Origin: Mesostigma viride
Taxonomy: Eukaryota; Streptophyta; Mesostigmatophyceae; Mesostigmatales; Mesostigmataceae
DNA length: 64,000 bases
NCBI GenBank assembly: GCA_009746045.1
Contig: RPFO01000104.1
Location: 1,019,076-1,083,075, forward strand
Direction: 5' to 3'
The notes below the pieces were generated by a model. It did not search any database. It saw nothing but the letters and a program-made list of their open reading frames with translations, and was not told the origin of the DNA. Shown here piece by piece: positions 2,156 to 64,000 of the stretch (positions are counted from its first letter, which is position 1; each line of letters begins with the position of its first letter). Both the position numbers and the translations under genes were made by a program.

Positions 2156-2925
2156 CGGTATAGAAATTTTATTTTTCCCCTCCCCCCCACCGAGACCACA
2201 GGAAGGGCCTCACACGGGAGAGAGAGTCCTACGTGAGAAAGGAGATCAGGCATGCGAACAGCTGTATGAAAGAGGTAGGCATAGGATTCATCATCAGGTA
2301 GTTCACCATACGGGGTTACACCCATAGTAGTAGGAACTAGAGTAGTATTGAGAACATCAAGGTCCTCGAAAAAGGAGTAATCTGCACGACGAGAGAGTGC
2401 ATCTGGTACTATGTTATCTACACCCTTAACATACTGAAGTTTAAAAGGGGAGAACTGTGCTAAAAACTCCATCCAGCGCGCTTGACGAGGGGTAAGGTTG
2501 GGTTGTGAGAGAAGATGGGTAAGAGGGCGGTGATCTGTCTGGATAACTAATCTATAAGGATCAATCTCACAGGGTTCATTCAGACAAACATCAAATTGAG
2601 CACCTTTAAGAAAGTGCTGCCACGCGTGGCAACAATACACCACAGCTAATAGTTCTTGCTGGTGTACGGGATAGTTACGCTCCGCAGGAAGCATTGTCCT
2701 AGAGATATACTCGATTGGCTGTAAGCCCTGACCCTGATCCTGGAGAAGGACGCCCCCTATAGCTACCTTGCTAGCATCTGTAGCTACAACAAAGGGTTTA
2801 GTAGTATCCGGTAGGATGAGTACAGGAGGGGAGAGGAGTAGGGATTTTAGACACTGAAAAGCCGACTGACATTCACTACTCCAAACAAAGGGGATATCCT
2901 TCTTTAATAGATGATTAATAGGGCT
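2143..2925 (-). pseudogene. Ty3-A RNase H domain
   Basis: Ribonuclease H part of pol, degrading RNA in RNA-DNA hybrids during reverse transcription. Reading across a one-base frame change near 2925 gives the RT-RH connection (HLLKKDIPFVW) and the first catalytic aspartate (FVVATDASKVAIGGVLLQD). It continues as RNYPVHQQELLAVVYCCHAWQHFLKGAQF (catalytic E in QQELLAV), then TDHRPLTHLL and the end motif NIVPDALSRR. This is the ordinary Ty3/gypsy RNase H order. The frame is lost again near 2155 before integrase. Confidence 0.8.
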
Positions 2926-4091
2926 GCTATAGTTGCGAAACGCGGGATAAAACGCCTATAGTAAGAAGCAATTCCTAGAAAACTACGTACACCTTTAACG
3001 TCGGTAGGGGTAGGCCATTCCTGAATTGACTTAGTCTTGTCAGGGTCGGTAGCAACCCCGGCATCTGACAGAACGTGCCCTAAAAATGGGACACTCCTAC
3101 CAGAGCGAACTTTAGCACGGCGCGCCCATAAAGAATTTTCAGCCATGATTTCTAATACTTTCTTTAAATCACGTAGGTGCGTTTCAAAATCAGGAGAATA
3201 AATAAGGATATCATCTAAGTAAGCTTGAGCACAAGAACGGTCATGCTCAGATAAAGAAACAGAGGAGAAGGAAGGATCCTTTAAATCAGAGGACACTTGA
3301 GGAAGGTGGGAATTTCCCATAACAGGTCTAAGCACTTCATTCATTAACATTTGGAAAGAGGCAGGAGAGTTACAGAGTCCCATAGCCGCTACTCTAAACT
3401 GGTAATGCCCAAAAGGGGTAGCAAAGGCGGTTTTGTGGCAATCCTCAGGAGCTATACGTAGTTGCCAAAAACCATCCGCACAATCTAGTACTGTGAAACA
3501 GGTAGAACCTTTAACCTTATTAAATATATCATCAATACGAGGTAGAGGGTATTTAGACTTCACAGTAATATCGTTTAACTTCCTATAATCAGTAACTAGG
3601 CGAAACTTGCCATTTGGCTTAGGAACTAACAGGACACCAGCGGAGTAGGGGGAGTTACTAGGCTCTATCAATCCTGCTTCTAATAGTGATACTAAAATCT
3701 GTTTTAGTTCCTTTAATTCTGTAGGGCCCATTCTATACATCGGAGAGTGCGTAGGAACTGCACCGTCCTTGATAACTACACGGTGTAAAACAGAACGAGG
3801 AGGAGGATAAGAAGGAGTCTTTTCTTCAAATACTTTTGAGGAATCTATCACAGCCATGTATCTTACTATTTCATTTTCAGTAAATCCCACTCCTATTGTA
3901 TCCACTGTATTTACATCTATATCCACACTATTATTAGTGATAGGTATCTCTTGTACTTCTAACTGAAGGAACATACATAATAGGTATCCATATTCCTTTA
4001 GTTCAGATCGCAATTCGTCATTGGACATTAATACTTCAGGTATAGGTCTCACAGGAGGATCAACAGGTGTAGGAGGAGTAATATCTACCAA
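2904..4091 (-). CDS. Ty3-A reverse transcriptase
   Basis: Reverse transcriptase of the Ty3/gypsy type. Motifs in order: AGLIEPSNSPYSAGVLLVPK, the FRLVTDYRKLNDITVKSKYP block, LDCADGFWQLRIAPED (first catalytic Asp), TAFATPFGHYQF, MGLCNSPASFQ and the catalytic box AYLDDILIYS, followed by FLGHVLS and the connection RSFLGIASYYRRFIPRF. An extra stretch of about 25-30 residues lies between the MNEVLRPV helix and YLDD (GNSHLPQVSSDLKDPSF and beyond). Ty3-B has a matching insertion, so it is a lineage feature rather than damage. The ORF ends early at a frame change just before RNase H. Confidence 0.9.
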   Translation of the reverse strand: MVDITPPTPVDPPVRPIPEVLMSNDELRSELKEYGYLLCMFLQLEVQEIPITNNSVDIDVNTVDTIGVGFTENEIVRYMAVIDSSKVFEEKTPSYPPPRSVLHRVVIKDGAVPTHSPMYRMGPTELKELKQILVSLLEAGLIEPSNSPYSAGVLLVPKPNGKFRLVTDYRKLNDITVKSKYPLPRIDDIFNKVKGSTCFTVLDCADGFWQLRIAPEDCHKTAFATPFGHYQFRVAAMGLCNSPASFQMLMNEVLRPVMGNSHLPQVSSDLKDPSFSSVSLSEHDRSCAQAYLDDILIYSPDFETHLRDLKKVLEIMAENSLWARRAKVRSGRSVPFLGHVLSDAGVATDPDKTKSIQEWPTPTDVKGVRSFLGIASYYRRFIPRFATIAALLIIY

Positions 4092-4102
4092 GGATAAATT
4101 TT

Positions 4103-4573
4103 CTAATCTATAATGACGTTCTGGTACCCAGTAGAGCTATCTGGAAACCAAATGACCATAGTATCATAATTAATAGTGATTTTATTATCCTGGTGCCAAT
4201 CTAATCCTAGTAATACATCAGCTGTAGTGATAGGGCCTATAGTGGCCGTCAGGTTGACCGTACGTCCTTGTATGACCAGGGGAAGGGACACCGTACCCGG
4301 GGAATGACTGGTGCGACCGTCAGCATAATGGACAGTGACAGTTTTTGTGTGAGGGGTAGGGACTAGTCCTAAACGCCTAACTAGGGCCTCGCTCACAAAG
4401 GAGCTAGCCGCACCGCTATCCACTAACACAGAGACATTCAAGAGTTCATCAGCATGCAGGAAGGGGTCTACAACAGTATGAGGGACGGTTAAGCCACCAT
4501 TCAAGAACATAAGAGGACGCACACGTAGTGGTAGGGATGATTCAGCTCCTACAGAGGTTATAAAAACAGGCAA
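4103..4573 (-). CDS. Ty3-A aspartic protease (retropepsin)
   Basis: Retropepsin-like protease that would process the Gag-Pol polyprotein. The active site VLVDSGAASSFVSEALVRRLGL is followed by the conserved second half ADVLLGLDWHQDNKITINY. The length, about 150 codons, fits a protease domain cut out of pol by frame changes on both sides: 30 bases separate its stop from gag and 11 from RT. It acts as a homodimer in the family. No start codon context is convincing, so it is probably made as part of a longer polyprotein. Confidence 0.85.
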   Translation of the reverse strand: MPVFITSVGAESSLPLRVRPLMFLNGGLTVPHTVVDPFLHADELLNVSVLVDSGAASSFVSEALVRRLGLVPTPHTKTVTVHYADGRTSHSPGTVSLPLVIQGRTVNLTATIGPITTADVLLGLDWHQDNKITINYDTMVIWFPDSSTGYQNVIID

Positions 4574-17777: not shown

Positions 17778-19565
17778 GTGATGAGTAACCCGGAGACACA
17801 ACCACCGTTATCAAGTAAGAGAGTTGAAGATGCAACCACATCTTTAGCAGCTCAACGGACGACCGGTGATGAAAGGGTTTCATCATCTACTCCCAGACGT
17901 CAACTATTTGGAGATACCACCTTAATGTCTGCTTCCCGCAGATATTCGCTGTCGGTCGGCCCAAAGTTCTCCATCTTGCCCCTCGGTGTGCAACCAGGCG
18001 AGCCCTCCCTGCGTGGCATTGGTAGAGGTGTACCACGGTTCTCCAACGTGGGGACACGCGTTCGCCAGCACCCGAATACGGTTCGGCTATTCGTTTTGGC
18101 TACAACACGGTGCCGGGGCGAGACGGCACTCGGCTAGCGGCTGACGAGCTGACAGCGGAGAAAATTCGATTACAACATGAACGTGAGGAAGCTGCGAGAG
18201 CTAGAAGTGTGGCGGAAGCGCTGGAGAAGAGTGTGGGTAGGACTATTGCGCGTGTGCAGCAACTTGAGTCGCAAGGGCAGGCGGGCGATGGAGAGTCTGT
18301 TTTCGTGGATCAACCGTCTCCAACACTGGGTATACGAGGGTATATGCGGTTGACGCTCCTTTTGTTGATGAAGGGACAGATGCACAGGGGCATGAGCCTC
18401 CACGGCTCTCGGTGGCTGCGACATTGTCGGAGAATCAGAATGCACCACACGCCCCAGTGATGGAGCTCACGTCTTTGTATCCTCGTACTGTTCCTTTTCC
18501 TAAGGTGGAGTCGGTAGACAAGCTATCGCTGACCAACCTTACCCATCGCAGCTTCGACCATTTCTCCACCAAGTTTCAGGATGTCTTCGCTATCCACTTC
18601 GCCAACTATGGGCCCAAGGCAGAGGAACGTCTCACGATGGACATCCAGAAGAGAATGGTTAGGCAGCGGATGAGCGACAGTGCCAGCGACCGTTTTGATG
18701 AGTTTTTGCGTTCTGTGGCTGGACGTGCGTGTACCGACCTCCCCTCTCTCCTATTGGGCTTTCGCCGGTTTCTGTTACCCCAGGATCAGCTTCGCATGGA
18801 TCGGGACGCACTGGCTAACTGTACGCAGGCTGGTTTGACGCTGCCACAGTTCGTGGAGCAATTCACCAACCTTAGAGCCAAGATTCCCAATGCTCTGACG
18901 CAGAGGCGCTTCACAGACTACTGCATGGCATGGCTCCACACGTGCGACTGGATGTGGACAAGCACTTCTCCCAGTTCGACTACGTGGATTGGCAATGGGA
19001 CAAGGTGTTGTCTTATGTGCTTACCCTTTGTCGTGTGCCTGCTTTTTCTGTCAAGTGGGAACCTGTGGCCACGCCAGTGCCACCCATCAAGAAGTCCCTG
19101 AACCAGCTGGATGACCTCCTGGGGGAACTCAATGCATTGGATCCCACCCAGGGTAACTGTTTTATCTGCAACCAGCCAGGTCACTTTGCACGGGACTGCC
19201 CTAGACGGGACCAGTTTCCCCCTGCCACGAGAGGACCTTTTGGCGCCCTGCCATCTCCCAGGCCACCCAACCTTCCTCCTGGCGTTCCTGCTGGCGATCA
19301 CCGGATGCAGCCAGGGTTCCAGCCCAACTTCCAGCCCTCTGGGAGGTTCCAGTCCCGCGCTAGGCCCTTCAGCAGACAGGATAAGCGTAGGATGGTGAAC
19401 GCTCTCATGCAGCTGCTGGCAGATGAGGAGGATGGGGGGACGAGGATGAGCCTCCAGCACCACCTGAGCAGCTTCCACCATCGGGCAGTGGAGCATCCCC
19501 AGACCCACCTGAGTCAAAAAACTAGTTGGGTCCCCAGGTCATCCTTCTGTCATGGCCAGGTCTGA
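17778..19565 (+). pseudogene. Ty3-B gag, frameshifted, with CCHC zinc knuckle
   Basis: Gag in at least three frames: 17778-18137 (MMSNPETQPPLSSKR, disordered), 18412-19101 (capsid-like, ending in the overlap) and 18930-19565 (C-terminal, with the knuckle CFICNQPGHFARDC and a Pro/Gly/Arg-rich tail). The capsid part shows RSFDHFSTKFQDVFAIHF, MSDSASDRFDEFLRSV and a helical stretch before the knuckle. A separate short frame at 17621 (MEFLPDPERVRYAVYSDSS) stops almost at once and may be the original gag start. Unlike Ty3-A no hybrid-binding domain precedes it. Confidence 0.75.
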
Positions 19566-20487
19566 CCTGCCTGCTGTTGACGTTAGGCCAGTGAACACTG
19601 TGGGTGCTTCTGACCCTGCTGTCCCTGTGGGTCCTCCTGTACCAGGTCACTTACTCAAGTTTCAGGCTAGGCTCCTCAACGTGCCAGTCCCCTTGGCTCA
19701 GCCAGCTTGCTTGTTTATGATTGATTCTGGTGCTGGCAGTAATTATATTGCTGCATCCTTGGTGCAGGAGCTGAAGTTGCCTGTGTTGGCCCACCCCACA
19801 CCTGTCATGGTGCAGTATTCTGATGGCAGGAGAAGCTGCTCACCTGGCTATGTGCAGCTCATCTTCCAAGTTTGTTCATCCCAGACTTTGGAAGTGACAG
19901 CAGATGTCATTCCCCTCACGGCAGCAGATGTGATTTTGGGGATCCCATGGTTGTCTGACACCAATCCTGCTATTTCTTGGCCTGACAGGGTGGTCCAGTT
20001 CAAGGATGGGACAGTGTGGGATGCTACCTGTGTGTTGCCAGGGGGGAGAAGAACAGCCACTGAGTGCTGTTCCACACAGACAGCTGTCAATGATGGCAAG
20101 GGAGGGGAAGCAGGTGCGAAAGGGGTGGATCAAGAGCCGACTTTGGAGGAGAAACGGGCTGCCCTACTGAAGCATGTGTGGTCTGCCAAGCATACTCTGT
20201 CTTATTTGGCCACCTATCCAGTGGAACACATCTTTTTCCTGCATTTGGTGCCTAATGAACCTGAGTCTGCTAGTGGTCATTCTGTCAATGCTGTCAGTTC
20301 TACTGTCACCACTGAGCAACAACAGCAGCATGATGCCTTGTTGGACAGGTATGGAGCCATCTTTGAGGACAAGATGCCCCAGTATCCTCCTGAGGGACCC
20401 ATCACACATGTCATCAAGTTGGTAGAGGGTGCTCGTCCTCCTTTGTGCCTATGTACAGGATGGGCCCTGCAGAGATGGCAGAGCTGA
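19552..20487 (+). CDS. Ty3-B protease and pol N-terminus
   Basis: Retropepsin with active site CLFMIDSGAGSNYIAASLVQEL and second half TAADVILGIPWLSDTNPAISW. After the protease comes a linker (EEKRAALLKHVWSAKHTLSYL) and the upstream RT lead-in HDALLDRYGAIFEDKMPQYPP...HVIKLVEGARPP. The frame is lost at about 20440, just before PMYRMGPAEMAELK in the RT frame. The ORF overlaps the end of gag by 14 bases. Confidence 0.85.
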   Translation: MARSDLPAVDVRPVNTVGASDPAVPVGPPVPGHLLKFQARLLNVPVPLAQPACLFMIDSGAGSNYIAASLVQELKLPVLAHPTPVMVQYSDGRRSCSPGYVQLIFQVCSSQTLEVTADVIPLTAADVILGIPWLSDTNPAISWPDRVVQFKDGTVWDATCVLPGGRRTATECCSTQTAVNDGKGGEAGAKGVDQEPTLEEKRAALLKHVWSAKHTLSYLATYPVEHIFFLHLVPNEPESASGHSVNAVSSTVTTEQQQQHDALLDRYGAIFEDKMPQYPPEGPITHVIKLVEGARPPLCLCTGWALQRWQS

Positions 20488-21263
20488 AGACCATACTTAT
20501 TGGCCTGTTGGAGGCTGGTCTGATCCTCCCAGCTAACAGTCCTTTCAGTTCTGGGTGTTTGCTTGTACCCAAGCATGATGGGGGGTGGAGGTTGTGCATT
20601 GACCTGAGGGGACTGAACAAGGTGACTGTCAAGTCCAGGTACCCTCTGCCCAGAATTGATGAGTTGCTGGAGAGGACTGCAGGAGCTGCCTTCTTTACCA
20701 AGTTTGACCTCAGGCATGCTTTCTGGCAGATCAGGGTGGCTACTGAGGACATCCCCAAGACGGCCTTTTCTACCCCATGGGGACAGTTCCAGTGGACAGT
20801 AATGCCCATGGGTGCCTCTAACAGTCCTGCCACTATGCAGATGTTTGTCAATGCCATCTTTGGCCACCTGACTGGAAATGCCCTGCCCCAGATCTCACCT
20901 GACCTTCGCAACCCCAGGTTCAAGGACATTGCCCACTTGTGTGACACTACCAGGGTGGTCTTCAGGACTTGTGTGGTCGTCTACCTGGACGACATTCTGG
21001 TACACTCTCGTACCTTCAGGGAGCACCTGGAGAACGTGGAGGAGGTCCTTAAGGTGATCCATCAGTATCATCTGTCGGTGAAGAGGTCCAAGGTGGAGTG
21101 GGGCCAAGAGGTGAAGTTTCTGGGCTACCAGCTGAGCGCTGCAGGTATGACTCCTGAGGCCAGCAAGGTCTCTGCTGTTTTGGAGTGGCCTGTGTTGAAG
21201 TCAGCTCAGGATGTCAGATCCTTTCTGGGCCTGGTGGGCTGGTACCGACGGTTCATTCCCTGA
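20445..21263 (+). CDS. Ty3-B reverse transcriptase
   Basis: Ty3/gypsy RT. Motifs: AGLILPANSPFSSGCLLVPK, WRLCIDLRGLNKVTVKSRYP, FTKFDLRHAFWQIRVATED (Asp), TAFSTPWGQFQW, MGASNSPATMQ and VVYLDDILVHS, then FLGYQLSAAG and RSFLGLVGWYRRFIP. Between the NAIFGHL helix and YLDD is an extra stretch (TGNALPQISPDLRNPRF and on to VFRTCV) matching the position and part of the sequence of the insertion in Ty3-A. It ends in a premature stop at a one-base frame change. Confidence 0.9.
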   Translation: MPMYRMGPAEMAELKTILIGLLEAGLILPANSPFSSGCLLVPKHDGGWRLCIDLRGLNKVTVKSRYPLPRIDELLERTAGAAFFTKFDLRHAFWQIRVATEDIPKTAFSTPWGQFQWTVMPMGASNSPATMQMFVNAIFGHLTGNALPQISPDLRNPRFKDIAHLCDTTRVVFRTCVVVYLDDILVHSRTFREHLENVEEVLKVIHQYHLSVKRSKVEWGQEVKFLGYQLSAAGMTPEASKVSAVLEWPVLKSAQDVRSFLGLVGWYRRFIP

Positions 21264-21264
21264 C

Positions 21265-22320
21265 ATGGCGGCCATCTCTGGTCCCCTGTTAGCCCTGCTC
21301 AAGAAGGATGTCCCTTTGAATGGACTGCAGCATGCCAGCAAGCTTTTGATGTGTTGAAGCAGAAGCTTACCACTGCTCCCTTGTTGGTGGGCCCCAACCC
21401 AGACTTGCCATACCAGGTTAGGTCTGACGCCTCACAGGGTGCTATTGGTGCAGTACTAATGCAAGATCATGGTAAGGGCCCTCAACCAGTGGAATACATG
21501 TCCAGGAGTATGACGTCTGCAGAACGTAACTACCCTGTTCATGAGCAAGAGCTGTTGGGATTGGTGGTGGCCTGTCACAAGTGGGAACACCTACTGAAGG
21601 GGGCCCAGTTTTCTGTGGCCAGCAGCGCCAGAGATGGGCAGGGCAACGAGTCTATTACCCTGATGACTGACCACAGGCCCTTGGTACATGTGTTGGAACA
21701 GACCCGGATGAGTAAGAGGATGGCTGGATGGATGGAGTTCCTGGGGGGGTTTGGACCTTTCTCTGTGAGGTACATTCCTGGTACGCAGAATGTGGTGCCT
21801 GACGCCCTGTCCAGGAGGAGGGATTTGATGGGAAGTTTTCATGAGGACTTGGACATCTGTGCTGCCCTGATTTCTGTGGTAGAGTGTGGAGCCTTGACTA
21901 GAGCTCAGGCCAACAACCAGAAGGTTTCTCAACTGTTGACACCACCTGTAGGGAATAACGGTGGTCCCGTGATGCTCATCGACCAGGGCTCTGTCCCAGA
22001 GTTGACAGGCGTCCAGGAGGGTGTCCAGTCACTGTCTGACAGTCTTAGGAGAAGTCCTGAAGGTGTGGTGCCCACTCCCACAGAGCAGCCAGGTGAGGGA
22101 GGCCCTGCTAGGCGCAGCAGAGGTAGGCCCAGGAAGTGGGTCATGGACCCTGTGTTGGTAGGCCGGTCCAAGGTGTTGGCCTCTCAGGTGATGGCAAGGT
22201 CAAAAGGGCCTATAGCTACTACTGTCTCATCCAAGCAGTTGGTGGCTAGCCCTGGGCAGGAAGAGGAGATGCAGATGCAGCCCCTGGGACCTGACAAGGA
22301 CCTGGTGTTGCCTAACCCTT
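21265..22320 (+). CDS. Ty3-B RNase H and linker
   Basis: RNase H begins in a shifted frame (LLALLKKDVPFEW..) and continues in the ORF from 21351: VRSDASQGAIGAVLMQDHG (Asp), RNYPVHEQELLGLVVACHKWEH (Glu), LMTDHRPLVHVL (Asp) and NVVPDALSRR. A hydrophilic linker follows, with RRSRGRPRKWVMDP, an AT-hook-like RGRPRK, before the integrase zinc domain. The linker is long for a Ty3 RH-IN junction. Confidence 0.8.
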
Positions 22321-23884
22321 TAAATATTTCCCTGCTGGACGTCATCAAGGCCTTCACCAAGACGGAGGACATGGCTACTGCAGCTATCCAGAGGGGCAAC
22401 TTTGGCAATAGACCTGTAGAATACTGGGAGGGCGTTCTGTATGTTCACACTCATGATGCAGAGCACACGGTGACTAGAAAAGTGTATGTGCCTGAGATGG
22501 CCATTCCCACAGTGTTACATTGTTTCCATGACGATGTGACTGCGTGTCATCCTGGTTATGCTAAGCTACTTCATGAGGTGCAGCAGAGGTTTTGGTGGCC
22601 TGGCCTTTATCAGGATGTTAAGGCCTATGTGGATCCTGTGACTCCTGCCAGAGAAATAAGGTCAGGAACCAAGCCACGCCCATTTTCCCATGGCTATGCC
22701 CATTCCCCTGCGCCCTTGGATCAGTGTGACTATGGATTTTATCTGTGGTCTTCCCATGTCAGATGGTGGCAATGACAGGATCCTTGTGGTCATGGACAGG
22801 CTGTCCAGGATGTGCCATCTGATTCCTTGCAATACTCATCTCACCGCTGTACAGTGTGTGATTTGTTTATGAAGGAGATCTACCGTCTGCACGGCATGCC
22901 TAGAGTGATCATCACTGATCAGGACCCCCTTTGGCTGTCAGGGTTTTGGAAGTCATTCTTTGACATCCTAGACACTAAGCTGGCATTCGGTGTGGCATAC
23001 AGGTGTGCCAGTACTGGGGCGGTGGAGAGGATGAACAGAATTGTCAGGGAGTGTCAAAAGCACTATTGTACACACGACAACAAGGACTGGGACAAGAAGA
23101 TACCTTTCATAGAGTTCGCAATCAACAACTCTCCTCTGGCTCCTCACCAGATGTCCCCCTTCGTGATCTGCAATGGCCAGTGTCCCTTGACACCATTCGA
23201 CTTGGAACTGCCTGACAGAGACGCTGAAGGCCCTTTCCAGCGACGTCTTGGTTCAGTCCAGCAGTTGTTGGCTTCCTTCCAGGAGGCTCACAGCATTGTG
23301 GCTACCCAGCTGTTGAGGACACAGGACAAATACCTGACTACGCCTGGCAGCAAACGGTGGCCAGTCATTCCTTTGTAGCTCCTGGGGACTTGGTGTTGCT
23401 GGAAGCCAACAGAGTGCTGCCTGAGAAGGAGCAATGCAGGAAACTGCAACCACTCTGGTTGGGTCCTTACCCAGTGTTGGCAACCTTCCACTATGGTACA
23501 GTGGTCCAGGTCCAAGTGCCTTCTCACTGGAAGCTCAGGAATAATATTTTTCACCTAGCCCAGCTGAAGCTGTACAGGCGCAACACCTTACCAGGCAGAT
23601 TGTCTGCCCCTTTGCCTTATGAATTGGATTCTGAGGGGGAGAAGATCTATGAAGTGGAGCGGTTGTTGGCTCACAGGGTGAAGGGGAAAGGTCGTACCAA
23701 ACAGTTGCAGTTTAAGGTACACTGGAAGGGAGAGCTAGAGGTGACTGCTACGTGGCTGTGGTTGTCTGATCTCACCAACAGTCACTCTGCTGTACTAGAG
23801 TATTGTCAGCGTCATGGTATCACCTTGCCTGAGTGGTATGTCATGGGCTCTGAGCGGTGTGCTCCCCTTCATAGCTCCCAGTGA
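22320..23884 (+). pseudogene. Ty3-B integrase with chromodomain, frameshifted
   Basis: N-terminal zinc domain: HCFHDDVTACHPGYAKLL and RFWWPGLYQDVKAYV. The CxxC pair (GSCDSCQRNKVRN) is present only if the frame changes at about 22632. Catalytic core: SVTMDFICGLPM (Asp, frame 22690-22872), then IITDQDPLWLSGFW (Asp) and GAVERMNRIVREC (Glu) in frame 22812-23378. The C-terminal ORF 23357-23884 has the GPY-like LWLGPYPVLATFHYGTVV and a chromodomain (YEVERLLAHR...QLQFKVHWKGELEVTATWLWLSDL). At least three indels separate these pieces. Confidence 0.85.
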
Positions 23885-36457: not shown

Positions 36458-37341
36458 GAAACGCCCTGCAGGTAGTCGTACGTTGCCCCACCATGTCGCA
36501 TGGAGTAGGGCGGAAACATCCCCCGCAGGCCCAGAACATCCCACGCCGCGTGCCACCGACGAGAGAACTGGCTGTAGTTGAGGCTCCCAAACAAGGGCTC
36601 CTCGGGCTCCCGCCCAGAGCACAGGCGCTCGAGCACGTACAGCGAGAGGGGATCCTGCACCACCACCGCCTGTGCACCCCCCTTGGCTGTCTTGGGATCC
36701 CGCAGAAGAAGCGCGCCCAGTCCCCGCTGCCCCAGGCGACGGTCGCCGCGCAGCGCCACGTCCCCCACTCGGAGCTTGAAGGCCTCCCCGATGCGCAGGT
36801 ATTGCTGGAAAGTGATGACGCACACGGCTGCTGCCATGGGCGCCCCCTGCCAGCGGAGGAGCTGCACCACCAGGTAGAGCAGCTCCCACGGCACCGGATT
36901 GGGGCTATGCGTTTGCACGCGTCGCTGCCACCCGTACAAGAGCCGGCGGGCCTCGCGCCACCCCTGCACTTGGCTGGGGTAGTACAGTTGCAGCCCACAC
37001 AGCGCCCTCATGCACATGGAACGCCCTGCTCCCCCTCCATCCTCGTAGACAGACACGAGCCACTCGCAGAACACGCTCTCCGCTTCCTCCGGCGGTACAG
37101 CACCATAGGGCTCAGCCCAAAGAAGGTATCGATCACTGCGCGATGGTAGCTGCGCAGGGTCGCGGGCAGCACGGTGCTCTCCAGTAGCTCCTGCCGCCCT
37201 CCCGGCCCCGGGTTACTCTCCACATCGCCATCGGCGGTAAGGTCCCGCACCCACCGGCCCCGGCTGGGCGCGTCAGCGGGGTTTCGCTCCGAGCGGATGT
37301 ACACCCAGTGGTACCTGGTGTTGCTGGCACAGCCCAGGGCG
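36458..37341 (-). pseudogene. Element X: RNase H end, 2A motif, tyrosine recombinase
   Basis: Upstream frame (37120-37341): RNase H end YIRSERNPADAPSRGRW, then GDVESNPGP (37203-37229), then recombinase N-terminus GGRQELLESTVLPATLRSYH. A one-base deletion near 37125 shifts the frame. Recombinase continues in 36462-37074: YLRIGEAFKLRVGDVALRGD (catalytic Arg I), RDPKTAKGGAQAVVV, and PYSMRHGGATYDYLQG (Arg II region). The rest is across the TIR element at 28863-29024. Recombinase inserts element circles by cutting and rejoining DNA through a tyrosine, so no integrase is needed. Confidence 0.85.
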
Positions 37342-47870: not shown

Positions 47871-48745
47871 TGGGCATCGAGTTTCACCAAGATGGGAGCT
47901 TGTGGCCGTCGGCGAAGCGACTGGCCCTCCTGGTCCACGACACCGAGGCGGTGCTGGCCCGGGGACGTGCAAGCTACCATGAGTTGGCCTCCCTACTGGG
48001 ACGCTGGGTATGGATCCAGCTGCTGCGCAGGAGTCTGCTAAGCACCTGGTTCCACGCCTACAGGATGCTCCACCAAGTGCTGGCCCTCCGCAAGGGAGGA
48101 CGCTTCCAACTCTGGGCAAGTGTGCGCCGGGAGCTCTGGGCGGCTGTCTGCCTGGCTCCCCTGGTGCATGCGCAGCGCAACCAGCCACTGGACACCACCG
48201 TCGTGGCCAGTGACGCGTCGAGCCGGGGCTCCGGTGTGGTGTACGCCCGTCTGGCAGAGGCAGACGTGAAGGCTTTGTCCAACTGCCGCGAAATGAAGGG
48301 GTGGAAGACTCTGTGTGTCGGGTCGGAAGAGGTCGGTGTGGAGCGAACGGGGGAGAGGGAACATCGGGCGGTGGCGACCGCCCGCTGGCGTGTGGCGGTG
48401 AAACACCGGTGGAGGGACGCGGGGGCGCACATCAATGAGAAAGAGGCGCGCGCAGCCGTGCAGAGCCTGGAGTGGGGGCTGCGCACGCGGGCGCGGTGGG
48501 GGCGACGGCACGTACGGCTGGTGGATAACACCGCCGTTGTGGGCGCAGTGGTGAAGGGGCGGTCATCATCTTACCGCCTCAACACGTGGTGCCGCCGCGC
48601 TGCCGCCCTGGGCTGTGCCAGCAACACCAGGTACCACTGGGTGTACATCCGCTCGGAGCGAAACCCCGCTGACGCGCCCAGCCGGGGCCGGTGGGTGCGG
48701 GACCTTACCGCCGATGGCGATGTGGAGAGTAACCCGGGCCGGGAG
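47861..48745 (+). CDS. ORF2 of element B: RT end and RNase H, broken 2A motif
   Basis: Continues with MEILGIEFHQDGSLWP, LASLLGRWVWIQLLRRSLL, then RNase H: VVASDASSRGSGVVYARLA (Asp), INEKEARAAVQSLEWGL (Glu), VRLVDNTAVVGAVVKGRS (Asp), YIRSERNPADAPSR (Asp). It then reads GDVESNPG, where X and H continue with P. Here one G is missing in the G-run at about 48737, so the frame leaves the recombinase and ends at 48811. This copy therefore lacks both the final Pro of the 2A motif and continuity with the recombinase. Confidence 0.85.
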
Positions 48746-54384: not shown

Positions 54385-56051
54385 TGATTGATCTTACGAT
54401 CGGGATTCCCTGATTTTGCCTGGGGGAGCGGAGGGATGGAGGTGCGCCGCTACCTTGGAGGCGCTACACCGTTGCCCAGTGGTGCAAGTCGACATGCGGG
54501 AGCCAAACGGGGTGGCCACGCCCTCTCTAGAGGGTCTGACAGCCTTGGATGGGCCTCAGATGTAGTTCGAACTAGTTCAAAGTTAGTACAGGTAGTACAA
54601 ACTAGTTCAAACGAGTTCAATCTACTTCAACTAGTATCCAGGGACCCTCAAGATATGCCAGGTGGTTGCTGAACGGTTCTGGCATGACAGAACATGTGTG
54701 ACATCATAAAAATGTAGTACAATGTTGAAAAAAGTAGTATCAGGGTCCTAGATCTAGTACAGTAGTATTCTAAGGTCATTCTTACATGGAGCGCCGCGCC
54801 AGCGGGGCGCCGCACTTGCGTGTGTCACGGATGCAACGTTGATGCGATGTATTTCAAGGTGGTGATGGCTGCCAAGCCAGCTTATCAGTTTTAGTTTTTT
54901 TTTGAAGGGCACCAGAACTTGTTTAGTACACTATAATGTCTGAAAACTGGCTTTGCATAATTTTTACTAGCTTGCGCCAAGGTACAGGACTCGTTCCAGG
55001 GATCTGGTACCTCTGCACCCCCAACTGGCGTGGGTCAAACGTAGTTGGAATGATCAGCAGGTTCTGAGCAATGGGCTCCTTAGAATCAGGCCCCTCCACT
55101 GCAACACCCTTCACAGCCCTTACAGCCACACTAAGTCCCTGGGAGTAGCGATATCTCTGGAGGGGTAAACTACCCTGCCCTTCTAGTGCCAATATTTCCT
55201 CAGAGGTTATCGTCACCCCCGGCTGGCATAAGAAATTCTGCCCCAGTATGGCTGGACCCTCACAGCCCTCTACCACACAGAACGCAGTGGGCACCCCCAG
55301 AATAGGCACACTCACCTCCCCCAGAACTTTCATGGACACATTCCCCGAGAAATCAGACACGGCTGGGTTACCGGCTACCGACATCTGCAACCCTGCAGCA
55401 TGCTCAGCCCTCAGAATGGACACCTGTGAGTTGGTATCCACCTCTAATGTTGCTGCCCAGCATGACCCCCGCCCCGTGAGCTTAGATACCTTGGAGTTAG
55501 TCTCCATGCTTTGCTGCAGACTAAGTCTCAAAGGCCTTGTGAATACAACGTATGAATAAGCCTTGTAAACCTACGTTGGTATGTGAATATAAATACCACG
55601 TGGGCTATGCAGATAGGACTGCTAGTCGAGTCGCATACATTTCCCTAGATACATGTAGGTACTTTGGGTACTGGGATACGTGACAGATGTCAGTACCCAG
55701 TATACGTAGTGTCCTGTCATTGGACGGTACTAGAGTATCCTAGATAGGGAACGTACTGCAGCGTGCATTGATCTGTCCACTGTGCATTGCCTAGGTCCAC
55801 TTCTGGTTGAAGGGCACCAGAACTTGTTTATTACACTATATGTTGAAGCCGACCGGACTACTAGTTCGAACTACATCTGAGGCCCATCCAAGGCTGTCAG
55901 ACCCTCCAGAGAGGGCGTGGCCACCCCGTTTGGCTCCCGCATGTCGACTTGCACCACTGGGCAACGGTGTAGCGCCTCCAAGGTAGCGGCGCACCTCCAT
56001 CCCTCCGCTCCCCCAGGCAAAATCAGGGAATCCCGATCGTAAGATCAATCA
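54385..56051. mobile_element. Inverted-repeat YR-element relic with retropepsin-like ORF
   Basis: Both ends read inward TGATTGATCTTACGATC: left on the plus strand from 54385 (A module 54385-54893), right on the minus strand from 56051 (partial A, 56051 to about 55858, followed by partial B to 55776). These modules belong to the H subfamily. The ~0.9 kb between them is unique and carries the ORF below. The inverted layout differs from the split direct repeats of the other copies. Confidence 0.55.
54923..55531 (-). CDS. Retropepsin-like protein, active site altered
   Basis: 202 codons. ATLEVDTNSQVSILRAEHAA occupies the position of the aspartic-protease active site; DTNS replaces the usual D(S/T)G(A/S). 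The second half, FCVVEGCEGPAILGQNFL, matches the conserved ILGxDFL region. The stop codon lies inside a partial B module of the YR element (DIIVY then TAA in GTGTACTAAACAAG), so the ORF is physically part of the relic. It could be an inactive protease relative or a domesticated binding fold. It is not part of any Ty3 pol here. Confidence 0.5.
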   Translation of the reverse strand: MRLSLQQSMETNSKVSKLTGRGSCWAATLEVDTNSQVSILRAEHAAGLQMSVAGNPAVSDFSGNVSMKVLGEVSVPILGVPTAFCVVEGCEGPAILGQNFLCQPGVTITSEEILALEGQGSLPLQRYRYSQGLSVAVRAVKGVAVEGPDSKEPIAQNLLIIPTTFDPRQLGVQRYQIPGTSPVPWRKLVKIMQSQFSDIIVY

Positions 56052-56886
56052 TCCACTGTGCATTGCCTAGGTCCACTTCTGGTTGAAGGGCACCAGAACT
56101 TGTTTATTACACTATATGTTGAAGCCGACCGGACTTAGTAGACAGAGAGACATAAAATATTTTTTGGCAGTCCCTGGCCGCCGCTTCCACTTGACCCCCC
56201 AAGACAAAACAGAAAAGGGTGGGTGGGTGGGGAAAACTGATAAGCTGGCTTGGCAGCCATCACCACCTTGAAATACATCGCATCAACGTTGCATCCGTGA
56301 CACACGCAAGTGCGGCGCCCCGCTGGCGCGGCGCTCCATGTAAGAATGACCTCAGAATACTACTGTACTAGATCTAGGACCCTGATACTACTTTTTTCAA
56401 CATTGTACTACATTTTTATGATGTCACACATGTTCTGTCATGCCAGAACCGTTCAGCAACCACCTGGCATATCTTGAGGGTCCCTGGATACTAGTTGAAG
56501 TAGATTGAACTCGTTTGAACTAGTTTGTACTACCTGTACTAACTTTGAACTAGTTCGAACTACATCTGAGGCCCATCCAAGGCTGTCAGACCCTCCAGAG
56601 AGGGCGTGGCCACCCCGTTTGGCTCCCGCATGTCGACTTGCACCACTGGGCAACGGTGTAGCGCCTCCAAGGTAGCGGCGCACCTCCATCCCTCCGCTCC
56701 CCCAGGCAAAATCAGGGAATCCCGATCGTAAGATCAATCATCCACTGTGCATTGCCTAGGTCCACTTCTGGTTGAAGGGCACCAGAACTTGTTTATTACA
56801 CTATATGTTGAAGCCGACCGGACTTAGTAGACAGAGAGACATAAAATATTTTTTGGCAGTCCCTGGCCGCCGCTTCCACTTGACCC
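56052..56886 (-). repeat. B1-A2-B2 right end of element H
   Basis: B2 56052-56197 and B1 56741-56886 are 146-bp direct repeats; A2 56233-56740 lies between. The A module begins TGATTGATCTTACGATC. The same A module opens at 63552 as A1. Confidence 0.9.
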
Positions 56887-57020: not shown

Positions 57021-59105
57021 CTACGGCCCAAAGTGACGACGCCAGTCACGGGGGGGCAGTCTGCCCGCGAGGTCCCACACCACCTGGGGCACCCGCACCT
57101 GCAGGGCGCGGTGGAGCCCCACGTAATGGTCCACGGACGAAAACTGGCGCCACCGGCCACGCTTTTGGATGTCCGCGATTGGTACCCCGCGCAGGTAGTC
57201 ATGGGTGGCCCCCCCGTGGCGCATGCTGTAGGGTGAAAACATCCCCCGCAAGCCAAGGAGGTCCCAGGCGGCGTGCCACCGCCGCAAGAAACGGCTGTAG
57301 CTGAGTGCGCCAAAGAGCAGCTCCTCGTGCGCCCGCCCAGCACACAGGGCGCCAAGCAACGTGAGTGAAAGGGGCTCAACAACCACCACTGCCTGGGCCT
57401 GGCCCTTGGCTGTCTTGGGGTCGCGTAGCAGCAGCGCACCCTGGTTACTGGGCCCCAGGCGGAAGTCCCCGCGCAGAGCCACGTCCCCCACGCGAAGCTT
57501 GAACGCTTCTCCGATGCGCAAGTATTGCTGAAAAACAATGATGCAGCAGCAGGCAGCTAATATCGAGCCTTGTGCACGAAGAATGTTTGCCACGAGGTAC
57601 AGTAGCTGCCACGGGACGGGGTGAGGGCTCTGCACGGGAACTCGTCGCGCCCAGCCGGCCAGCAAGCGACGCGCCTCGTACCACCCCTTAATCTCGTTGG
57701 GGAAGTACAGCTGCAGCCCGCATAATGCGCGCACAACCATGGTCCGGCTTCCCCCTTCCTCATACACGCTGACCAGCCACTCACAAAAGACGCCTTCCGC
57801 CTCCGTCTTGGCCACGGGAGCGAGGGGTTGACCATACTCCACGTACGCCCTCAGCGCTCGGTGATATGCAGCTAGCGTGCTGGGCTGCACAGTGGCCTCC
57901 AGCAATTCCTGCCGCCCATGTGGCCCCGGATTGCTCTCCACGTCGCCATCCGCAGTGAGGTTGCGCACCCATCGACCACGACTGGGCGCGTCGGCCGGGT
58001 TGCGCTCCGACCTCACATACACCCAGTGGTAGCGGGTGTTGCTGGCCAGCCCTAGCGCGATCGCCCGGCGGCACCAGGCGTTCAGCCGGTAGGACGACGA
58101 ACGCCCTTTGACGAGCGCACCGACAACTGCCGAATTGTCCACCAGCCGCACGTGACGTTGCTGCCAGTGAACCTGTGAGCGCAGGCCCCACTCGATCCCT
58201 TGCACAGCCGCACGAATCTCCTTCTCGTTGATGTGGGCCGAGGGATCGAGCCACCGGTGGGCAAGAGCGGTCCTCCACTGCGCCGCTGCCATGGCTCGGT
58301 GCTCAATCTCCCCTGTGCGCTCCACGCTGGCCGTCTCAGAGTCCACACAGAGCGTCTTCCAGCCCTTCCGCTCCCGACAGTTGGACAGGCCACGCACCGC
58401 AGGCGCCTCCCACCGGCTGTACACCACCCCAGAACCGTGGGTTGACGCATCAGTGGCCACCACGGTGCAGCTCAGGGGCTGGTCGCGCTGCGCATGCACC
58501 AGCGGGGCCAAGTCCATTGCAGCCTGGAGCTCTTCCCTTACACTACCCCACAGCCGATAGCTCCAGCCCCGCTTGTGCACCAGGACTTGCTGCAGCAAGC
58601 GGTAGGCGTGAAACCAGATGGACAGTAGACCCCGACGCAGCAAGTGGACCCACACCCACCGTCCCAGCAACGAGGCCAGTTGGTGGTAAGTGGCCCGTCC
58701 ACGCCCCAGCATTGCCTGCGTGTCGCGCACCAAGGCCGCCATCCGGGCCGCGCTCGGCCGCATGGACCCGTCCTGGCAGAACTCAATCCCCAAGATTTCC
58801 ACCGGGCGCCCCTCCTCAGCTCTCTCCACCTTCTTCTCGTTGACCACCAACCCCTTGGGACCGTAGCTCTCCTCGCACGCCTTGGTGAGCACGGCGTTGG
58901 TCTCCTCCGCGCTCCGCCCATGGGTGACCCCCAGATCATCGATCATGACCAGCTGAGCGGGATGTGGGGGATCCTCCGGCAGCAGCCGCCACGCTGCACT
59001 GGCTGCGCTCTCCACCAACTCCAGCCGGTCCATGCCATCCCCGCGCACTGTGCGCACCCCCATCAAGTGCATGGGATATGACAGCCCTCTCTTGGCATCG
59101 AGCAC
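57021..59105 (-). CDS. ORF2 of element H: RT end, RNase H, 2A motif and tyrosine recombinase in one frame
   Basis: 694 codons uninterrupted. RT box LVMIDDLGVTHGRS; connection LASLLGRWVWVHLLRRGLL; RNase H VVATDASTHGSGVVYSR (Asp), INEKEIRAAVQGIEWGL (Glu), VRLVDNSAVVGALVKGRS (Asp), NPADAPSR (Asp). Then LTADGDVESNPGP (motif at 57921-57947), and recombinase: QSTLAAYHRAL-like start, FQQYLRIGEAFKLRVGD (Arg I), RDPKTAKGQAQAVVV, PYSMRHGGATHDYL (Arg II), KRGRWRQFSSVDHYVGLH (nucleophile Tyr codon near 57123-57125). The only copy with RNase H, 2A and recombinase in one open frame. Confidence 0.9.
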   Translation of the reverse strand: MLDAKRGLSYPMHLMGVRTVRGDGMDRLELVESAASAAWRLLPEDPPHPAQLVMIDDLGVTHGRSAEETNAVLTKACEESYGPKGLVVNEKKVERAEEGRPVEILGIEFCQDGSMRPSAARMAALVRDTQAMLGRGRATYHQLASLLGRWVWVHLLRRGLLSIWFHAYRLLQQVLVHKRGWSYRLWGSVREELQAAMDLAPLVHAQRDQPLSCTVVATDASTHGSGVVYSRWEAPAVRGLSNCRERKGWKTLCVDSETASVERTGEIEHRAMAAAQWRTALAHRWLDPSAHINEKEIRAAVQGIEWGLRSQVHWQQRHVRLVDNSAVVGALVKGRSSSYRLNAWCRRAIALGLASNTRYHWVYVRSERNPADAPSRGRWVRNLTADGDVESNPGPHGRQELLEATVQPSTLAAYHRALRAYVEYGQPLAPVAKTEAEGVFCEWLVSVYEEGGSRTMVVRALCGLQLYFPNEIKGWYEARRLLAGWARRVPVQSPHPVPWQLLYLVANILRAQGSILAACCCIIVFQQYLRIGEAFKLRVGDVALRGDFRLGPSNQGALLLRDPKTAKGQAQAVVVVEPLSLTLLGALCAGRAHEELLFGALSYSRFLRRWHAAWDLLGLRGMFSPYSMRHGGATHDYLRGVPIADIQKRGRWRQFSSVDHYVGLHRALQVRVPQVVWDLAGRLPPRDWRRHFGP

Positions 59106-60130
59106 CCCGCCCCGTAGAGACAGTGCAGGTGGGCAACCTGTGCAAGGACCACCGAGTGGCTCCAGCCCATGACAAGGACCCGGAACCTGGGGTACAACTT
59201 TCGCCGTCGTCCCAGCTGGCCGACCTCATCGGACCACACGGGGGGCAGCGAGAAATAGGGGCGCCAGCTCTCAGGTACCTCGAACCGGTAATAGTAGGTG
59301 TCAAGGTCTGTCTTGCCCGAATAGCATGGCGCCCCCACACTCAGCTCAGCGACCTCGCCCAAGTTAGGCAGGTAACAGGTAGGCGGCTTGAGGAAGCGCC
59401 GGTTGCACGGCACCATATTCCCTATAAACCGCTGCCGTCGTTCGCTGGGCTCCACAACCCCGGGGTCTTTCTTGGGGACGGCAAAACAGCCGTTCACCAC
59501 AGGGGCGCCTCCTCACTGTACTCGATCATCCGCGTCTCCGCCAGCCTGATGCTCAGTCGTGCGTACGCCGCATCGCTTGCACAACCATGAGACACCCGGC
59601 CCCGCCGCATCCACGCCCCCGCCTCCGCGTCGCATCTTTGTAGAATGTTGTTTATGTCCTCATACGTCCTCTGCCATGCCTCCGGCAGGCAGTCCAGCAG
59701 CTTGACACTACCTGCAGCTCCTCCTTTTGGCAGTGCCAGCCTCTCCGGGTCAATAATTTCGTATTGACCGCCCGGCCCGTATGGCGCGGGCTCTGCGTCC
59801 CCCGTGTCTGTCGCCTCCGCTACGGCGGTAAGCCGGCGGTTGTAGACGCGGGCAGCATCCTCCATCCCTTGTAGGGCGGCCCTTTGGGCGACGGTGCAGG
59901 GGCTCGCAGTAATAGCCTGCTGCTGCACCGCCGGTCCACCGGACCGTTCCCGGGTCCTGCCCCACAGCCAGTTCAGGCCCCTTGTGGCCCGCTCTTGACA
60001 CCGCAGCCTTGCTCTGGCACGCAGAGCGCGCTGCAGCCTGCGGTTGGATCGCAGGCGGCTGCGGTCGAGCGGGGGGACCATCTTCACTGGCAGCGGGAGC
60101 ACACCCCTGCCCCTCACTTGTCCTTTTTGG
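59063..60130 (-). pseudogene. ORF2 of element H: N-terminal region and RT N-terminal half, two frameshifts
   Basis: Frame 59494-60417 overlaps the ORF1 end (QVRGRGVLPLPVK), then a basic helix (DRSRLRSNRRLQRALRARAR), CTVAQRAALQGMEDAARV, VSHGCASDAAYARLSIRLAE, and stops after a frame change near 59500. Frame 59063-59500 continues: NGCFAVPKKDPGVVEP, RQRFIGNMVPCNRRFLKPP, KTDLDTYYYRF, VLVMGWSHSVVLAQVAHLH. A second frame change near 59100 leads into the 57021-59105 frame. Confidence 0.85.
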
Positions 60131-60854
60131 CCGCCGCCGCCGCCGCCGATGCCAGCTCCGCCTCCTGGCGAGCCGCCTTCCGCGCTGCCCGGGCTGCTGC
60201 GCTTCCAATAGTACTGCCCTCCACCAGTGGCAGCAGGTGCATCGCCCCGTTGTTCCAGCCGCTGGTCTTCTCCACCATGAGGAACGCCTCGACCACACGC
60301 GCCAGGTACTCGAAGCAGGCCAGCTCCGTCACCACATCCTCCCCCAGCTCTTGGATGGCCACATCCAGAATGTAGGTCAGGTTGTTGCACACCAGATGGT
60401 GCGTGCTGTTCTTCCACCCGCGGGGGGCTCCCGGTGCAGCCCCAACGCCCTCCTGCTCCTTGCGAAGGGCCAAGCGGGCCTGCAGGCTCCCGTGCGCGAC
60501 CTGGCGCGCATCCAGCACCTGCAGCGGCGGCACCCTGTCGTCGCGGTCCTTGACCAACAGGCGCCAGGCCACTTTGAAAGCTCGCCGGGGGAGACGCACC
60601 CCCTTGGTGGTTCGGCGCAGGTCTCTCTCCCTCACACGCTCCCGCGATCGACGCGAGCTCCGCTGGGAGGAGTCCCGACTCGTGCTCCGGCTGCTGGACC
60701 GCTGCCGCTCCTTGCGACGCTCGCGGGAGCGATCCCGACGCCCCTTGGGCTCCGCAGAACGGCCCCTGCCATGCCCACGTCGCTCCCGGGACTTGTCGCG
60801 GCGCGACCGAGCGCCACCCCTGCCCCTGCCACGGCCTCTGCTCTCGCTGTCGGA

Positions 60855-60896
<42 letters not shown>

Positions 60897-61553
60897 GCGA
60901 CTCTCGTCGCTCCCACTGCTGGTGTCTGTCGAGCCTGGGCTGCTCCCGCGCCGCGCGCGTCTCTTCTCCTGGCGCTTGCTCTTCGGATGGCCCTTGCCCC
61001 CCTTGTCCTCGCGCTGGCTCTTCCCTTTCCTCGCGTCCCTCCTCTTCCCCCGCGCCAGGGCTTGCAACTCCGCTCCGATGAGCTCGCGGACGCCCGCCAG
61101 AAGGGCAGCATTCTCTGCCAGCTTTCGGTTCCTGCCCTGAGACTTCTTTCCCTTGGCGCGAGCAGCAGCAGGGGCCAGCTGCTCGCGCGCGTCCAAAAAA
61201 TCCTCAGAGCTCGTCGCGTCCTCCTCTTCCTCGTCGGTGCCGTTGCTGGGAGGATCCTTTCGGGTCCTTTCGCCCCTGGCTGGACCAGTCTTCCCCTTGC
61301 CCCCAGTGGCCACTGGGGGCTTCTTCATCTCTAGAGTAATGGCCTTGCACAACATGGAACCCATGTCGGAATCACTTGACCCCTCACTAATCTGGAGCCC
61401 TGCAGTCTTGAGAAACTGTCCCAAGGATGTCAAACGACCCTCAGACATAGTAGTAAGCCTTTGGGCCCAGTTTGGACCGAGATACTCAGTCAAGAACTTC
61501 AAAGTCGTTAACAGCTCCTTGCCCCCCTGAAAATACGATTTTTTCACATTTAA
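60114..61553 (-). CDS. ORF1 of element H, main part
   Basis: About 478 codons: helical N-terminal part (KKSYFQGGKELLTTLKFLTE, LGPNWAQRLTTMSEGRLTSL), acidic stretch, Lys-rich part, a serine run, an Arg/Ser-rich segment, and the conserved C-terminal domain (HHLVCNNLTYILDVAIQELG, ELACFEYLARVVEAFLMVE, then Ala-rich and Lys-ended tail). No CxxC cluster as in A/B/X, which is a subfamily difference. The frame runs upstream into the piggyBac-like insertion and resumes beyond it. Stop AAGTGA again overlaps ORF2 in the -1 frame. Confidence 0.8.
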
Positions 61554-63252
61554 CCCCTAAATGGTCTGGCTGCCGATTTTCCGCCTAAAACTGAGTTACA
61601 GCCGACACGTCGGCCCCTTCTCGGGGGACCAAATGCCGCGAAAACTATTGAGAATTAGGAAACGTTTAGCTGAGAAGAATGAAAGTTTATAATTTTCCTC
61701 ACAGCATGGTACTAGGGTTTGCATACTTCTGACAAAGTTATAGAGGTGTTCTGGCCGGTCAAAGTACAAGGGGTCAGGGTACTTTTTCGCGTACAACGTG
61801 CATTCCGGAAAACGACGACCTGGCCATGGCGGCTTGCGCCCACGCATGGCATTTACGTTTTCGTTCGAATTTTCTGACCAAAGTCAGGAAATTGATTTTA
61901 TACGTCCTAAAGATGATACAGGCCAATTTTTGGTTCGCGGGAATGCCATTTGATAGGTGTCGGCAGCGTTCTTGCTGGAAAAAACTGCGATCAGGCCGGA
62001 CGATAGAAACGTTGACAGCAATACCTTTCCGGCGTATTTTAAAGGATATATTGGTTTCTTTGTACTTTTTATGATACATGGTAGTCGTAAACGTGCAAGG
62101 GTGGCCAGAAATCGCCGAATCCAGCGACCATGCTGCACAACTTTGGTGTGCCGAAATGCGCCATTTTGCGGCCACCGCCTGGGCCAAGGTAACGCCATCC
62201 ATGCCTGGTAAAGCTTAAGCATCGTTTTCCTATCGATGTTTGACGTTTATATATACGTTCTAGCTTGTGTAGCACATTCTTTTTGCATTATTCATGCTCT
62301 TTCTTGACCCTGGCCTGGCCCCTTTCTAAAACACCCTTCTTAGATGCTTCCCTCAGTCAGTTGACCTGCCACAGGGTGATGGTGATAAGTTTAAGAGGCT
62401 GTATGGGTTTGAATACCTCCATATATGTTTGTTATACATTTCCCACACACATATTGCATGAGTGTGAGGCAGTTGGCTGGTCTCTGTGGCATCATCAAGC
62501 ATGTAACCGGTGAGTAGAAGCTTCCCATTGTCAGCATGTGACACCAGGTGTGCTGGCCATCACCTGGCAAGCTATAGCAGCTTAGGCCTAGTTTATTCTT
62601 GCTAGGGCAAGCTGAAATAGGCTTAAAATCACTAGTTTGTTGGTGGCTGCCTCCTAGAATGCATGCCTTGCGTAGGGTATCCGTACCACGTTACCTACGT
62701 GCATGGACAAGGTGGCACCTGCACATAGGTGCCATGTAAGGGCAGTGTGATGATGCAGTTATGTTTCCCCATCATTGTGGAATGGAAATGTATTGTGTGG
62801 CATGGTTGGGGGCCATATTAGTAGGTATTAGTAGGTAGTATGCCCACTCCTACCCCCTTGGTTGCTTTTTACCAACGGTACCCCTATGGGCTGTACTGGG
62901 TGTAACTGCTGGTATACCCACCCAAATGATGACCCCAATGGCTCAAACTGTTCAGCAACTAATTGTTTATCATCCCTGAAGTGGTAGGTGCCTAGCTCTT
63001 ACAACATAATTCAAAATGCACATTCTACCAAAAATGAAAACGCTCGTCTTGACCCCCCTGACTTTGACGGCAGTTATACATGGCCTACCCTGCATATATG
63101 TAAGGTTGTGATATACCAACCCGAAGGGCAACTCATGGACATGCTTGGCCCCCAAGGACAGCCATTGGATATGGGTGGGTTGGATGGCATCTGGTTTGCA
63201 AAATTGTGAAGTTACAGCCGATGCATCGGCAGTATTTCTGCCCATTTAGGGG
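61554..63252. mobile_element. piggyBac-like non-autonomous DNA element, TTAA target
   Basis: 1,699 bp between TTAA copies (61550-61553 and 63253-63256). TIR CCCCTAAATGG at the left and its complement at the right. Subterminal near-palindromes GCCGACACGTCGGC (left, near 61597) and GCCGATGCATCGGC (right, near 63217) lie in mirrored positions. No transposase ORF; the interior is AT-rich non-coding sequence. TTAA duplication with a CCC-starting TIR fits piggyBac; Kolobok also uses TTAA but usually has other ends. Confidence 0.8.
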
Positions 63253-63551: not shown

Positions 63552-64000
63552 GAAAACTGATAAGCTGGCTTGGCAGCCATCACCACCTTGAAATACATCG
63601 CATCAACGTTGCATCCGTGACACACGCAAGTGCGGCGCCCCGCTGGCGCGGCGCTCCATGTAAGAATGACCTCAGAATACTACTGTACTAGATCTAGGAC
63701 CCTGATACTACTTTTTTCAACATTGTACTACATTTTTATGATGTCACACATGTTCTGTCATGCCAGAACCGTTTAGCAACCACCTGGCATATCTTGAGGG
63801 TCCCTGGATACTAGTTGAAGTAGATTGAACTCGTTTGAACTAGTTGGTACTACCTGTACTAACTTTGAACTAGTTCGAACTACATCTGAGGCCCATCCAA
63901 GGCTGTCAGACCCTCCAGAGAGGGCGTGGCCACCCCGTTTGGCTCCCGCATGTCGACTTGCACCACTGGGCAACGGTGTAGCGCCTCCAAGGTAGCGGCG
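63552..64000 (-). repeat. A1 terminal module of element H, cut by window edge
   Basis: Same sequence as A2 at 56233-56740, starting (inner end) GAAAACTGATAAGCTGGC. It continues past the window. Confidence 0.9.

Follow-up and report, generated by a model that had tools for sequence, protein, structure and literature searches.

A stretch of the Mesostigma viride genome (64,000 nucleotides, hereafter the window) raises the question of whether a retrotransposon there separates its enzymes during translation. On the minus strand, the peptide LTADGDVESNPGP is encoded at 57921-57959, between the RNase H and the tyrosine recombinase (YR) of an element termed H. The original prediction had placed a 2A-type ribosome-skipping motif at 57915-57955, at the RNase H-YR border and in one open frame with both enzymes. 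The peptide, its border position and the shared frame of 734 codons were borne out, and the coordinates were corrected by a few bases. Judged from its sequence and setting, the peptide is in all likelihood a working StopGo (2A) of the class called motif 4, which would release RT-RNase H from the recombinase within a single ORF2. The features of H and of its neighbors are listed in the table.

Features of element H and other copies of the peptide in the window (positions in window coordinates)
Feature	Positions	Strand	Remarks
StopGo/2A-like peptide WVRNLTADG-DVESNPG/P, element H	57921..57971	-	viral motif 4 except N for D at p6
Core octapeptide DVESNPGP	57921..57944	-	sequence read
Predicted unmade bond in DVESNPGP	Gly 57924-57926 / Pro 57921-57923	-	
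NPADAPSR, conserved RNase H end	57978..58001	-	
Open frame of 734 codons: C-terminal RT (VMIDD), RNase H, 2A, YR	57021..59225	-	homology to P0002/P0010-type RT-RH-YR proteins
Tyrosine recombinase (Phage_integrase), residues 551-703	57117..57575	-	Pfam PF00589, E 5.6e-7
N-terminal part of H ORF2	59494..61203	-	by eye against P0002/P0003; frame differs from 57021-59225
ORF1, in place of gag	60114..61556	-	no Pfam match at E 0.01
Terminal repeat A1	63552..64000, on to 64061 beyond the window	-	510 bp, 99.6% identical to 56232-56741
Repeat A2	56232..56741	-	pairs with A1
Repeat B1	56549..56886	-	338 bp; identity to 55860-56197 100%; 193 bp shared with A2
Repeat B2, end of element H	55860..56197	-	pairs with B1
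Same peptide in element X, WVRDLTADGDVESNPGP	37203..37253	-	full motif 4 match
Third copy, frame broken within the motif (DVESNPG followed by another frame)	48719..48739	+	

Li et al. (2026; PMC12846837) sort viral StopGo sequences into six classes by their upstream residues. In motif 4, DLTxDG precedes D(V/I)ExNPGP, with D at p12 and S at p15; in motif 1, (R/K)DLTxE precedes G(V/I)ExNPGP, with G at p12 and P at p15; and both contain WV(R/K)DLTx[acidic]G with an offset of one residue. One example each of motifs 4 and 1 was almost 100% active in reticulocyte lysate, and changing the characteristic upstream residues removed nearly all activity in almost all cases (PMC12846837). The core D(V/I)ExNPGP is not always active (PMC11512398). 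Li et al. describe StopGo as frequent among RNA viruses and as a rarity in cellular genes, and they report no evidence of its natural use by plant viruses (PMC12846837). Outside viruses, 2A is on record from sea urchin NLR genes and, as the original prediction had stated, from non-LTR retrotransposons (PMC4981915, PMC11512398).

The octapeptide of H fits the core of the 2A class, (D/G/C/N)(V/I)ExNPGP, as had been proposed, and the hexapeptide upstream assigns it to motif 4: the match is exact in element X, and H reads NLTADG with one change (N for the first D, p6). Both elements have S at p15, the residue preferred in motif 4. A degenerate DNA pattern of the motif matched exactly two places in the window, namely H and X, and none in each of 100 dinucleotide shuffles. 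Element X indeed shares the nine residues of H at 37203-37229 with other codons (GAT/AGT/AAC in X for GAC/AGC/AAT in H). Its recombinase continues in another frame shortly after the motif, and the N-terminal RT part of H lies in a frame other than that of the peptide (within 59494-61203), so neither copy is whole. RT and RNase H of H were assigned from homologous proteins whose PF00078 annotation was precomputed; the Pfam scan of H itself gave no PF00078 match, its frame holding only part of the RT. By eye, gypsy-like polyprotein frames with reverse transcriptase and integrase were also seen in the window at 1145-4136 (minus strand) and 18268-22775 (plus strand).

Element H spans the minus strand from 64061, i.e. 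61 bases past the window, to 55860. Its repeats are split direct repeats in the order A1 ... B1-A2-B2, which is the order given for VIPER, Ngaro, and PAT-like elements (PMC6681497). The element had been called PAT/Kangaroo-type. The PAT half of this label fits both the YR and the split direct repeats; the Kangaroo half, with its inverted YR, was rejected since the YR shares the frame of the RNase H. Two other assignments were likewise dismissed: (i) a DIRS1-like element, because among the ends only plus-strand repeat matches and no inverted terminal repeats were found at E 1e-6; and (ii) a non-LTR retrotransposon with a 2A, because a YR is present and the APE endonuclease family was not matched. 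Among the Pfam matches of the five frames scanned, no endonuclease family occurred.

The genome assembly (440 Mb, 2243 contigs) was searched for further copies. The 26-base motif of H occurs exactly 57 times (control, 0). Searched with the octapeptide alone, DVExNPGP has 177 matches at the DNA level (reversed pattern, 0), with 12 DNA spellings among the 100 matches listed. A protein search with H gave at least 61 places, 57 of them without an internal stop. Full score over all 734 residues was reached at 11, including H's own, and another 11 belong to the 71%-identical X family, with open frames of 909 or 1044 codons. There are sister copies whose motif-bearing stop-to-stop frame is 909 to 1102 codons long. 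Although absent from the query, [DN]LTxDG stands just upstream in 14 of 15 octapeptide occurrences at the 14 loci read, which include near-copies and represent some five families altogether; the one deviating occurrence, at L028, seems to have changed frame upstream. The loci read belong to the X family, to a third YR family that is dispersed, or to one of three contexts lacking a recombinase. At the same RNase H-YR border, the dispersed family reads NPADGPSR...GWRRDLTSDGDVEANPGP. The motif is thus displayed by three YR families of this genome; since loci were picked by the octapeptide, borders lacking it would be missed.

In every H copy whose frame was read (H, L003, L005, and L007), p6 is asparagine, which would suit a once-working StopGo that was inherited by copying and became useless in family H through the change of D to N. 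We regard this as improbable, because the family is numerous and little diverged, with its 57 exact 26-mers and 11 full-score places, and because L030 of the dispersed family also has N at p6. For the same reason, i.e. its many and little diverged members, the H family is probably young. A working StopGo remains the reading that we prefer for H.

The copies of H and X are unevenly placed. Among the matches listed for X, 86 of the 91 H and X places have another one within 150 kb; in 200 random draws, the number of places with such a neighbor averaged 5.6 and reached at most 18. A contig with such copies mostly holds them in a single tight block (e.g. C1:13.26-13.30 Mb, C1480:2.26-2.37 Mb, and C1579:2.62-2.73 Mb; the window lies within C1801), and an outlying copy was seen on C1690. 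The dispersed YR family, assigned by DNA spelling, is not so clustered (4 of 21, among the matches listed). DIRS-1 localizes to centromeres in Dictyostelium (PMC5633606), and the H/X blocks, which resemble it, may mark centromeres. In frames in which no recombinase was seen, a module FIN[LIF]xxxRxxWRA... runs into DLTxDGDVExNPGP (L024, L026, L036, and L029; L025 and L032). The FIN[LIF]xxxRxxWRA-type context was found at 13 places (L024, L026, L036, and L029), twice in tandem in L026, and appears by its sequence to be a separate repeat module and a further StopGo context of this genome.

The original prediction had read the differing codons of H and X as a sign of selection on the protein, and codon comparisons supported this. 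Between H and the X family, the nine codons of GDVESNPGP differ by five synonymous and no replacement changes, against a background pN of 0.24 over some 447 codons. Between H and the dispersed family, on the contrary, only one synonymous but two replacement changes were found, and between the X family and the dispersed family four synonymous and two replacement changes; in both cases the replacements fall in the free x codon. For the comparisons with the dispersed family, pN was 0.10 in the nine codons versus 0.44 (H) and 0.40 (X family) overall. In the same way, the x of DVExNPGP varies in proteins P0001-P0006 (S, A, R, T) and the other positions are fixed. Nucleotide-level conservation alone was rejected as an explanation, given the synonymous changes within the motif. 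Chance similarity was dismissed on the shuffle and genome counts and is practically negligible as an account of the peptide; the synonymous-only change between H and its sister family also argues against it.

Three protein searches yielded 141 proteins, one search contributing its best 120 of 284. The best match, a Mesostigma gene model (P0001), was 100% identical over the 151 residues queried. An RNase H end and a recombinase box occur in one frame in 39 of the 141 proteins, and all 39 carry a border peptide ending in G-P. By class, five have motif 4 (P0001-P0005), three motif 1, 29 the peptide FDSTLG[YF]PGEGP and two LGDGP, the patterns for the last two classes having been drawn up after the sequences were seen. 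Motif 1 stands at the same border in P0010, P0011, and P0028, reading W[VT]RDLTEEGIEPNPGP; P0010 and P0011 share 31 and 32% identity with P0002. The two LGDGP proteins (P0051 and P0055) read SSN[SD]LGDGP, possibly a shortened form of the FDST sequence. A further 90 proteins have the RNase H end without a recombinase, and 88 of these stop within 20 residues of it (median, 3); the 2A thus sits where most recombinase-less relatives simply end. Three proteins were set aside (P0006, P0007, and P0026), and the pattern for the RNase H end was unmatched in nine (P0008, P0009, P0024, P0025, P0027, P0070, P0090, P0119, and P0129). P0006 has a 2A further from motif 4, with WVPNVTQAG, and its frame ends 19 residues later without a recombinase. 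P0008 and P0024 have a recombinase-type RHGG box with no recognizable RNase H end and none of the peptides; in P0008, a Mesostigma gene model, gene prediction may have taken the linker for an intron and cut it out. Absence of the motif from family members with an intact ORF2 had been named as evidence against a 2A; P0001-P0006, which are at least 62% identical and reach the border, all keep it. One RT-RNase H of this group, P0133, is filed under Nostoc sp. DedSLP01 and is perhaps a eukaryotic contaminant.

In H, the linker from NPADAPSR to the recombinase is GRWVRNLTADGDVESNPGPHGRQELLEATV. A border between two folded domains is where structural linkers and protease sites occur, and YR elements could conceivably use host proteases. 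That the peptide is such a linker or site, with any splitting done by a protease, is nevertheless unlikely, although somewhat less so than a StopGo useless in H: the StopGo core with its hexapeptide recurs in frames of this genome that have no recombinase, two StopGo classes occupy the same border, and no protease family was matched by Pfam at E 0.01 in the five frames scanned. If the peptide works as a StopGo, the nascent ...LTADGDVESNPG would leave the ribosome with the last Gly-Pro bond unmade. RT-RNase H would then be released with an 18-residue tail after NPADAPSR, and the ribosome would continue and make the recombinase as a separate protein starting with Pro; that both enzymes arise in equal amounts is an assumption of the original prediction. 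The StopGo reading is based on position, frame, selection on the amino acids, the match to an assayed class, and the place where RT-RNase H ends in relatives; activity in the alga, its efficiency, and a need for separate enzymes are what we infer.

The FDST peptide FDSTLG[YF]PGEG(P) was examined across its carriers, which comprise fused proteins (P0012-P0015, P0029-P0050, and P0052-P0054) and two without a recombinase (P0056 and P0060). Its border reads FDSTLGYPGEGP, e.g. in P0032, P0038, and the tandem P0036; tandem duplicates occur in P0030 and P0036. Thirty-three copies were compared, 31 from the 29 fused proteins and one each from P0056 and P0060. Among these, F, D, T, G, P, G, E, and G do not vary, S and L each differ in two copies, position 7 holds F or Y, and 32 copies retain the last P. 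Much of the motif was, however, fixed by the collecting pattern itself, which constrained D and S in part and left freedom only at T, L, and the last P. Information content is 4.1 bits at the last P, against 1.65, 2.4, and 1.2 bits over the three positions that follow, and the distance to both neighboring domains varies. The FDST peptide ends in GEGP rather than in the NPGP core and is therefore not a StopGo member by sequence; it may work alike.

Literature searches with FDSTLG and two longer strings gave no match, and only PGEGP was matched. In the viral_contigs collection, neither the FDST motif nor the motif-1 pattern was found; a profile scan of it turned up 13 loci that are 26 to 32% identical to the recombinase part. 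The FDST motif had a single match in genome_contigs, within the frame FDRTIGFPGEGP of a bacterial MAG; nothing like an RT or recombinase was seen in the 164 residues read, and the match was taken for chance. Tentatively, and at somewhat less than even odds, FDSTLG[YF]PGEG/P could be a second, unrelated class of ribosome-skipping peptide. This reading draws on its occupation of the StopGo slot in 29 of 39 fused proteins, the sharp end of conservation at G-P, the tandem copies, and the trees.

Trees were obtained by short searches without bootstraps, and their support values are to be read as such. With 22 unfused relatives, thinned by number, and without P0007 and P0026, the RT-RH tree united the FDST, motif-1, and LGDGP proteins in one clade (SH-aLRT 99) and placed motif 4 apart. 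Within FDST, motif 1 grouped next to P0038 and P0039 in the RT-RH tree (93, P0045 included) and the YR tree (97), and also in the joint trees, with support of 94 and of 90, the latter in a tree that left out the five motif-4 proteins. A single FDST clade was rejected (p-AU 0.003, with LGDGP, motif 4, and motif 1 among the rows outside it), and motif 1 plus motif 4 as a single clade was compatible with the data (p-AU 0.154), so that the two StopGo classes may share an origin. These sequence trees are most simply explained by replacement of one border device with another, and such a replacement suggests that both do the same job.

The locus thus very probably holds a real StopGo in an unusual place, as judged from the sequence. 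In this streptophyte alga, StopGo recurs in YR retrotransposons as a component under selection, which hints at the way in which single-ORF YR elements obtain separate enzymes. The two kindred viral classes, motifs 4 and 1, at one homologous border of related elements offer a natural series for the relations between classes. The FDST peptide is a testable candidate for a new skipping sequence, also of use as a tool, and is the part of the finding that could be categorically new.

Several known systems invite comparison. Heras in 2006 and Odon in 2013 reportedly described 2A in non-LTR retrotransposons (L1Tc; APE-type elements). These likewise have a 2A-like peptide in a retrotransposon ORF; here, in contrast, the peptide parts RT-RNase H from a YR, in an element with split direct repeats. 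Among the matches listed in a literature search for 2A with DIRS/YR retrotransposons nothing fitted; Rao et al. (2025) lay outside its scope, so no claim of priority is made. With the viral StopGo sequences of motifs 4 and 1, the border peptides share the core, the upstream hexapeptides, WV(R/K)DLTx[acidic]G, and a position in frame between coding parts. The host differs: a retrotransposon of a green alga here, viral ORFs in the survey of PMC12846837, in which 'retrotranspos' occurs once, in a reference title. Among YR elements, the YR of the DIRS1-like ones has an ORF of its own, and in half of 28 elements the overlap is long (PMC3266345); single-ORF copies are on record for TATE of Bodo saltans (PMC6681497). 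The YR may be inverted in elements of the PAT group (PMC3266345). With the PAT-type YR elements (PAT and Kangaroo), H has RT, RNase H, YR, and the A1 ... B1-A2-B2 repeats in common, but it differs from them in carrying the YR in frame 3′ of the RNase H, with the 2A between the two.
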